This document shows, in pieces, positions 60,846-64,000 of a stretch of DNA of 64,000 bases (positions are counted from its first letter, which is position 1; every line of letters starts with the position of its first letter). Position numbers and translations under genes: made by a program. Under the pieces are notes generated by a model that had not been told where the DNA came from, searched no databases, and worked only from the letters and a program-made list of their open reading frames with translations. The stretch covers positions 61,234-125,233 of the forward strand of contig JODI01000018.1 of the NCBI GenBank assembly GCA_000720805.1, read 5' to 3'. Source of the DNA: Streptomyces violaceoruber (lineage in GTDB: Bacteria; Actinomycetota; Actinomycetes; Streptomycetales; Streptomycetaceae).

Positions 60846-61859
60846 ATGAACACTCCTCCTCCACCTCAGGCCTCCTCCGGATCCGTCGGCGCCGCCGCCC
60901 TGACCGCCGCACTGTGTCTGCTCCTCGCCGGCTGCTCCGGATCCGGCGGCGCCCGGCTCGACGCGGACACCGACGCGGCGGGGAGCGCGGCCACCGGCCG
61001 GATCAGGGTCGCCCTGATCACCCACGGCGGGAAGGGGGACGCCTTCTGGGACCGGGTGCGGCAGGGCGCCCGCGCGGCGGCCGCCAAGGACGGCGTCGCG
61101 CTGACGTACGCGAACGACTCCGACCCGGCCAAGCAGGCCCAGCTGGTGCGTGACGCGGTCGGGGACAAGGTCGACGGCATCGCGGTGACACTGGCCAAGC
61201 CGCAGGCGATGAAGGGCCCGGTCGCCGAGGCGAAGGCGGCCGGCATCCCCGTGGTCGGTTTCAACTCCGGTATCGACGCCTGGCGTTCCCAGGGGCTGCT
61301 GGAGTACTTCGGCCAGGACGAGAGCCTCGCGGGCCGGGCGGTCGGCGACAAACTGGACGCCCTCAAGGCCAAGCACGCCCTGTGCGTGATCCACGAACGG
61401 GGCAACGTCGCCCTGGAGGCGCGCTGCGCCGGCGTGAAGAAGACCTTCGCGGGGCAGACCGAGATGCTCTACGTCGAGGGCACCGACCTGAACGGCGTGA
61501 ACGCCGCCGTCACCGCCCAGTTGCAGCAGGACCCCACGATCGACGAAGTCGTGACGCTGGGCGCCCAGTACGCGGAGACCGCGGTCAAGGCGGTGAAGGC
61601 GGCGGGCAGCAAGGCCAAGGTGGCCACCTTCGACCTCGACAAGGACCTGGTCACGGCGGTCCGGGACGGGGACGTGCAGTTCGCCGTGGACCAGCAGCCG
61701 TATCTGCAGGGTTACCTCGCCGTGGACGCGCTGTGGCTGTACCGGACCAACGGCAACTTCAGCGGCGGCGGAGTGGCTCCCGTGCTCACCGGGCCCGCGT
61801 TCGTCACGAAGGCGAACGTCGCCGCGGTCGCCCGGTTCGCCGCCGCCGGAACCCGCTGA
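60846..61859 (+). CDS. Sugar-binding lipoprotein, RbsB-like
   Basis: The 337-aa protein has a lipobox LAGC (Cys about 30) and a type-1 periplasmic-binding fold ('IRVALITHGGKGDAFWDRVR', 'GIPVVGFNSGIDAW', 'TLGAQYAETAVKAVK'). No permease gene follows; instead a sensor kinase starts 62 bases later. This suggests a receptor role for a signalling system rather than transport, an inference from position. Confidence 0.82.
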   Translation: MNTPPPPQASSGSVGAAALTAALCLLLAGCSGSGGARLDADTDAAGSAATGRIRVALITHGGKGDAFWDRVRQGARAAAAKDGVALTYANDSDPAKQAQLVRDAVGDKVDGIAVTLAKPQAMKGPVAEAKAAGIPVVGFNSGIDAWRSQGLLEYFGQDESLAGRAVGDKLDALKAKHALCVIHERGNVALEARCAGVKKTFAGQTEMLYVEGTDLNGVNAAVTAQLQQDPTIDEVVTLGAQYAETAVKAVKAAGSKAKVATFDLDKDLVTAVRDGDVQFAVDQQPYLQGYLAVDALWLYRTNGNFSGGGVAPVLTGPAFVTKANVAAVARFAAAGTR

Positions 61860-61921: not shown

Positions 61922-63954
61922 ATGTCTAGACGGACAGGTTCCCGACGCCGCCTCGGCTCCATCCGGCTCTCCCTGATTCTCCTCGCCCTGGTGCCGAGCG
62001 TCACCCTCGCCGCCCTGTGGGGTGTCACGACGACGCAGATGTTCTCCGAGGGCCTCCGGCTGCGCTCGCAGACGGAGCTGAGCCGGTCGACCGGCGCGAT
62101 GGGCACCGAGGCCACGCTCGCGCTCCAGCAGGAACGCGGGCTGTCGGCCGCCTGGCTGGCCGGGCGGCCCGGCTCGCGGGCCGCCCTGGACCGGGCGCGC
62201 CGGGAGACGGACAAGGCGGTCGCGAAGCTCGTCGGCCGGTCCGAGGCCATCCAGAAGGCTCCCGCCCGCGTGGCCGACCGGCTGTACTCGGTGGTCGGGT
62301 CGGTGGGCAGCCTGGAGTACTACCGCAGCCAGGTGGACGATCCCACCGACATCACGGCCGAGCAGGCACTGGACCAGTACACGTCGATCATCGACGACCA
62401 GATCCACGCCTTCCAGGAGCTCTCCCAGGTCGACGACGGCGACCTCACCTCGCAGGCCGGTCCGCTGGTCGCCCTGGAGCACGCGGCGGAGCTGGTCTCC
62501 CAGGAGGACGCCCGGCTCACCCTCGCCTGGCCGTCCGGGCACCTCGACGAGAAGGCGTGGACCGACTTCGGCCACCTGGTCAGCACCCGGCGCTGGATCG
62601 TCCAGGACCAGATCGTGCCCGCACTGCGCGGCAGCACCAAGACGCAGACCGAGCGGATCCTGCAGAGCCCCCAGTGGCAGACCGTGCAGAGCATCGAGGA
62701 CCGGGTGCTCGCGGCCCAGCCGTCGGGCGGCGCCCGCCGGGTCGCCCTGCCCGGTGCGGGGCAGCAGTGGGCCGCAGCGCTGAAGACGGTCTCCGACCGG
62801 TACGGCGACCTGATCCGGCAGCAGACCTCCGGGCTGCTCGGCCGCAGCGCCGACAAGGCGGACCGGCTCCTGCTGACGGCCGCCTCGTTGAGCGCCGGCG
62901 GGCTCGTGGCGCTGCTGCTGTGCGTGGGCATGTCCTGGCGGATCACCCGTTCCCTGTCCCGGCGGCTGCGCGGCCTGCGGGAGGCCACCCTGGGGCTGGC
63001 CGAGGAGCGGCTGCCCGACGTGGTGCGCCGGCTGGAGCGGGGCGAGAAGGTCGACGTGGACCTGGCGGCGCCGCCGTTGGACTACGGCTTCGACGAACTC
63101 GGCCAGGTCGCCCAGGCGTTCAACACCGCGCAGCGCACGGCCGTAATGACCACCGTGGAACTCGCCGACACCCGGCGCGGTTTCCAGAAGGTGATCCTCG
63201 GCATCGCCCGGCAGAGCCAGAACCTGGTCAACCTCCAGCTCAGCCAGCTGGACGCGCTGGAGCGCGAGCACCAGGACCCGGACGTCCTCAAGGGCCTGTA
63301 CGAACTGGACTCCACGGCCAGCCAGTTGCGCCGCTACGAGGAGAACCTCGTCATCATCAGCGGTGAGCAGCCGCGGCGCAGCTGGACCGAACCGGTCGCG
63401 CTGATCGACATCCTGCGCAGCGCGATCGGCGAGGTCGCCCAGTACCAGCGGGTGGAGGTGCACACCGACGAGGAGGTGTACCTGGCGCCGCCCGCGGTCG
63501 CGGACGTGATCCACCTGCTGGCCGAGCTGATCGACAACGCCACCGCCTACTCCCCCGCGCCGAGCCCCGTGGGGGTGCGGGCCGCGATGGTGGCCAAGGG
63601 TCTGGCCGTCGAGGTCGAGGACCGGGGGCTCGGCCTGTCCGAGGAGGACTACGCCTCCCTCAACGCCCAGTTGGCCGACCCGCCGCAGTTCGACGTGGTG
63701 GCGCTCGCCGACGACCTGCGGCTCGGCATGTTCGTGATCTCCCGGCTCGCCCGGCGGCACGGCATCACGGTCACCCTGCGCTCCTCGCCGTACGGCGGCA
63801 CCACGGCGATCGTGCTGATCCCGCACGAGGTGGTGGTGCCGGAGGCGGCGGCCGTGGAGTCCCCGAAGGACACGGCGTCCACGGCGGAACCGCAGTCCGG
63901 AGAGGACACGGTGCGGGACCCGGACCCCGTCGAGAACCCGGCCCCCTCGCCCAC
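61922..63954 (+). CDS. Nitrate/nitrite-sensing-domain sensor kinase (CvnA-like), truncated
   Basis: The protein has TM1 (about 20-40), an extracytoplasmic NIT domain (about 60-300), TM2 (about 318-340), HAMP and a GHKL ATPase domain ('HLLAELIDNATAYSPAPSPV', 'VEDRGLGLSEED'). A helical stretch 'NLVNLQLSQLDALEREHQDP' followed by ELDSTASQLRRYEENL stands where a His box would be. It lacks a canonical H-E-x-R/K-T-P, as in conservon CvnA-type kinases. Genomic coding ends at about 63954. The frame then runs into adapter, so the last 12 residues (from 'CLLYTSDAADE') are artefact. Confidence 0.85.
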
Positions 63955-64000
63955 CTGTCTCTTATACACATCTGACGCTGCCGACGAATAGAGAGGTGGA
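63955..64000 (+). other. Illumina Nextera adapter contamination
   Basis: CTGTCTCTTATACACATCT (63955-63973) is the Tn5 mosaic end, followed by GACGCTGCCGACGA (63974-63987), ATAGAGAG (63988-63995; the reverse complement of i5 index CTCTCTAT) and GTGGA, which nearly matches the adapter's GTGTA. This is library sequence, not genome. Confidence 0.97.

Follow-up and report, generated by a model that had tools for sequence, protein, structure and literature searches.

The kinase gene and the end of the window

The window, the whole 64,000-base stretch of DNA that was analysed (G000:C18:61234-125233), closes with a sensor kinase gene that runs into sequence of another kind. The following features lie at this end.

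61922-63954, plus strand: 5' part of a cvnA-type sensor kinase gene, 677 whole genomic codons, with NIT and HATPase_c (Pfam); its 3' part lies at the start of contig C43
63953-63991, plus strand: false kinase C-terminus in the translation of the window, consisting of T from a mixed codon, CLLYTSDAADE and a TAG stop inside the index
63955-63973, plus strand: Tn5 mosaic end CTGTCTCTTATACACATCT, 19 bases, the first adapter bases past the genome; exact, 0 mismatches
63974-63987, plus strand: reverse complement of the 14-base Nextera read-1 extension, GACGCTGCCGACGA; exact
63988-63995, plus strand: reverse complement of the i5 index, ATAGAGAG (index CTCTCTAT); exact
63996-64000, plus strand: start of the reverse-complemented P5 primer, GTGGA; four of five bases match GTGTA
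63649-63969, minus strand: spurious open reading frame with an MYKRQ start in the adapter (GTG start at 63969)
63771-63971, minus strand: spurious open reading frame with an MCIRDR start in the adapter (ATG start at 63971)

The 46 terminal bases of the window (63955-64000) are Nextera adapter and not bacterial DNA. The mosaic end, the 14-base extension and the i5 index that the earlier note had read here are all three exact and stand in the order of the library. The mosaic end is the single match in the window on either strand with up to three mismatches allowed, and none of 100 shuffled sequences contained a match, even at three mismatches. In PMC4248319 the 19-mer is found as the oligonucleotide Tn5MErev, and the 14-base stretch is the reverse complement of the Tn5ME-A extension printed there. 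PMC8185305 and PMC6308894 both show CTCTCTAT as an i5 index that follows immediately after the P5 primer. GTGGA, which the earlier note left unexplained, departs from the P5 start GTGTA only at 63999, the last base but one of the contig. C18 is 125,233 bases long and base 64000 of the window is its final base; the window therefore stops at a true contig end, as had been claimed.

The kinase open reading frame reads ...PSPTCLLYTSDAADE at its end, with the stop at 63989-63991 falling within the index. The false CLLYTSDAADE ending and the false minus-strand starts MYKRQ and MCIRDR, already described in the earlier note, are all present in the list of open reading frames; the only refinement is that the count of false residues rises from 11 to 12, since the codon for the T that precedes CLLYTSDAADE takes two of its bases from the genome and the third from the adapter. 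Translated in its three forward frames the adapter gives LSLIHI, CLLYTSDAADE and VSYTHLTLPT, and two reverse frames give MCIRD and VYKRQ.

The further claim that this is a well-known contaminant ending stood in part: the same tail was seen on one further protein in the database, but the ending is undocumented in the literature searched, in which neither CLLYTSDAADE nor MCIRDR occurred. A search of a protein database with the last 60 residues of the kinase frame returned one match among 62 candidates (E value of 7.2, not significant), and the common tail was noticed by eye. The matched protein has 41 residues, the first 24 of which are unlike the kinase, and ends in APSPTCLLYTSDAADEL. The APSPT that it has in common with the kinase is in our view due to chance, and the rest of its end would fit an independent adapter tail. 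In the literature searched, MYKRQ occurs only in a paper on a fish receptor variant, which is unrelated.

Adapter sites in the assembly and in other genomes

The assembly (G000) comprises 10,528,896 bases in 350 contigs and was searched for the mosaic end with up to two mismatches allowed. There are 42 mosaic ends (40 exact and two with one mismatch), and the tails of all 42 were read. At 41 of them the adapter points outwards at a contig end, no more than 65 bases from it. The tails are i5-type at 19 sites and i7-type at 21, with two too short to type. A full index is reached by 16 of the 19 i5 tails, all of which read ATAGAGAG, and by 16 of the 21 i7 tails, all of which read TAAGGCGA; the eight i5 and i7 tails that fall short of the full index agree over their length. 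One dual-indexed library therefore explains the adapter sites. We take the kit names of the two indices to be S502 (i5) and N701 (i7). The tails stop at many different lengths, and one or two mismatches are present at six of the 41 terminal sites, in four of these at or near the end of the tail, as expected of read ends. Untrimmed reads from a single dual-indexed library would produce this pattern across the assembly. The opposite end of C18 (L032, G000:C18:1-2000) has a mosaic end too, in bases 3-21.

The only internal mosaic end of the 42 lies at 95168-95186 of contig C34, where it is followed by 41 bases of i7-type adapter (to 95227) and then by other sequence (L012 and L063). Among the matches listed, and as read from their positions, the best matches of the two flanks lie on one contig, about 15 kb apart or less, in nine of 12 same-genus relatives. 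Their orientation among these matches is the same as in C34 in five relatives (G001, G003, G009, G011 and G012, the last assigned from a partial match) and inverted in four (G004-G007), and in G002, G008 and G010 the flanks are not together on one contig nearby among the matches listed. Since the flanks are near each other in nine of 12 relatives but in mixed orientation, it is possible that the internal adapter marks a wrong join.

Over the 20 bases that precede each of the 42 adapters, GC content averages 0.757 and absolute GC skew 0.485, compared with 0.718 and 0.209 for a control of 5,000 random window positions each. The control was drawn from random window positions and not from adapter-free contig ends, and the skew result is therefore a lead only. 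It raises the rather doubtful idea that adapter-tipped contig ends mark C- or G-rich runs that tagmentation libraries lose; if so, proline/alanine linkers such as that of this cvnA gene would be broken systematically.

The mosaic end with its extension (at most one mismatch) is present in four of the 31 genomes compared (G000 and 30 relatives), namely G000 and three of another family in the same order. The comparison with related genomes had been proposed in the earlier note as a way to refute the adapter reading, and it did not do so: the mosaic end is absent from all six orthologous kinase loci examined, those of same-genus relatives, and the four copies in the three more distant genomes all lie near contig ends, at 4, 4, 8 and 17 bases. 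A scan of a public genome collection for the mosaic end with its extension returned at least 120 stretches, a number from which no frequency follows. Among the matches listed there are 126 exact copies, 120 of them no more than 50 bases from the end of the stretch and the other six within 466. The end of the stretch is the end of the contig for all 25 listed stretches whose start is internal to a contig and for all 27 of 8,000 bases; the remaining 68 listed are whole contigs, by our reading of the listing.

Two of the public contigs (L081 and L139) have long, mostly-G runs after the adapter, at contig ends; such runs are typical of two-colour Illumina machines past the end of the fragment. Two others (L130 and L152) have the complete adapter followed by A-rich sequence with scattered C, also at contig ends, and these A-rich tails are another sign of reads past the fragment end. 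A search of a plasmid collection with bases 62000-64000 of the window matched the adapter part in five Klebsiella plasmid records over 33-39 bases at 97-100% identity, so that finished plasmid records may also retain adapter.

The kinase gene on contigs C18 and C43

Pfam analysis of the kinase gives NIT and HATPase_c, with HAMP under the curated cut-off. The kinase DNA is matched in all 31 genomes, and at 86% identity or more in seven (G000 and the six same-genus relatives). In these six relatives the frame continues to 792-921 residues; the contig of one (L057) ends before the stop. When the next part of one relative's locus was used as the query, the best match in G000 was C43:41-1771. Bases 2-415 of C43 code for a match to the orthologues' C-terminus, 137 residues long and closed by a stop, and downstream of them lie genes for Robl_LC7, DUF742 and ATP_bind_1 proteins, in that order. 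The kinase, its C-terminus and the three genes are consecutive in five of the six relatives, the sixth (L057) being cut by a contig end.

The order in cvnABCD conservons is sensor kinase, roadblock, DUF and small GTPase genes, according to PMC13343842. From the gene order we infer that the DUF742 protein is CvnC and the ATP_bind_1 protein CvnD. As C43 opens with the 137 C-terminal residues of the kinase, followed by the next genes, an assembly gap has divided a single conservon. The kinase that looks solitary and truncated where C18 ends is the leading gene of that conservon, which extends over two contigs.

A search for an overlap between the last genomic bases of the window and the beginning of C43 found none; the adjacency of C18 and C43 therefore rests on gene order in the relatives. 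The spacing in four relatives gives a missing piece of about -12, 57, 60 and 69 bases, and two relatives with longer linkers (L059 and L061) give about 260 and 410 bases. Because the length of the linker varies, these sizes are to be read as a range only.

Upstream of the kinase, at 60846-61859 of the window on the plus strand, is a gene resembling those for periplasmic sugar-binding proteins (Peripla_BP_4). Matches to it precede the kinase in the loci of all six relatives, some of them shortened by the end of the stretch. A link between this gene and the signal of the kinase is conceivable.

Origin of the terminal bases

The tail of the window is almost certainly untrimmed adapter read-through that was left in the assembly. 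The identity of the adapter, the index pair common to the sites, their position at contig ends and the continuation of the gene on C43 are direct observations; we infer the read-through itself, the lack of trimming and that the break was due to low coverage. The library, made by Nextera (Tn5 tagmentation) with a single i5/i7 index pair, would have contained some fragments shorter than the read, and reads from these would have continued at their 3' ends through the mosaic end and the index into the P5 or P7 primer. The gap lies inside the proline-rich linker of the cvnA gene, where read-through reads would have been the last to extend C18. This would be why the tip of C18 consists of 46 adapter bases, with 12 false residues and a stop from the index entering the open reading frame calls. 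Three observations are counted against this account: one of the 42 mosaic ends (in C34) is internal, C18 and C43 do not overlap and there is a mismatch at 63999.

One alternative is a real transposon end, from a Tn5/IS50-like element or an engineered mini-Tn5 inserted in the kinase gene; the 19 bases are indeed an end that is recognised by transposase. Behind the mosaic end, however, are extension, index and primer bases and no transposon interior; half of the copies (21 of 42) have an i7-type tail, and 41 of 42 are at contig ends. In addition, PMC4248319 presents the mosaic end as a hyperactive substitute in vitro for the wild-type ends. We regard a genuine insertion as extremely improbable. 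Even less credence can be given to the idea that the frame shows the natural C-terminus of a divergent kinase, or that its likeness to an adapter arose by chance. It is true that the frame reads through the junction and is closed by a stop, but the orthologues extend well beyond this point, a conserved continuation is present on C43 and the shuffled sequences gave no match to the mosaic end.

A narrower alternative accepts the adapter as real contamination and holds that the last ~100 bases before 63955 are wrong as well, being a chimeric join and not the linker of the kinase. The DNA alignment to the relatives ends at about 63853 and leaves ~101 bases unaligned, and the adapter embedded in C34 indicates that one such site in the assembly is not terminal. 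Yet the unaligned stretch keeps the frame, its acidic and proline-rich composition resembles that of the variable linker in the orthologues, and the protein alignment to one relative extends to residue 670 of 677. A chimeric tip is accordingly very unlikely, if less so than the two preceding explanations.

With read-through as the preferred explanation, the observation is an ordinary artefact of sequencing and assembly; it is no feature of the organism and holds no new biology. Its importance is one of data hygiene only, since protein databases can take up the false tail as well as both false minus-strand open reading frames. Anyone who uses the assembly should remove the adapter sites by trimming and be cautious with contig C34.

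Two known systems can be compared with the end of C18. The gene order of the conservon, or actinobacterial G protein system (cvnABCD), is that of the kinase on C18 together with the genes on C43; the copy in G000 differs in being split over two contigs. The tail itself has the same order of mosaic end, read-1 extension, i5 index and P5 start as the Nextera dual-index adapter, from which it differs by the one mismatch at 63999, and the i7/P7 counterparts of that adapter are present elsewhere in the assembly, likewise at contig ends.
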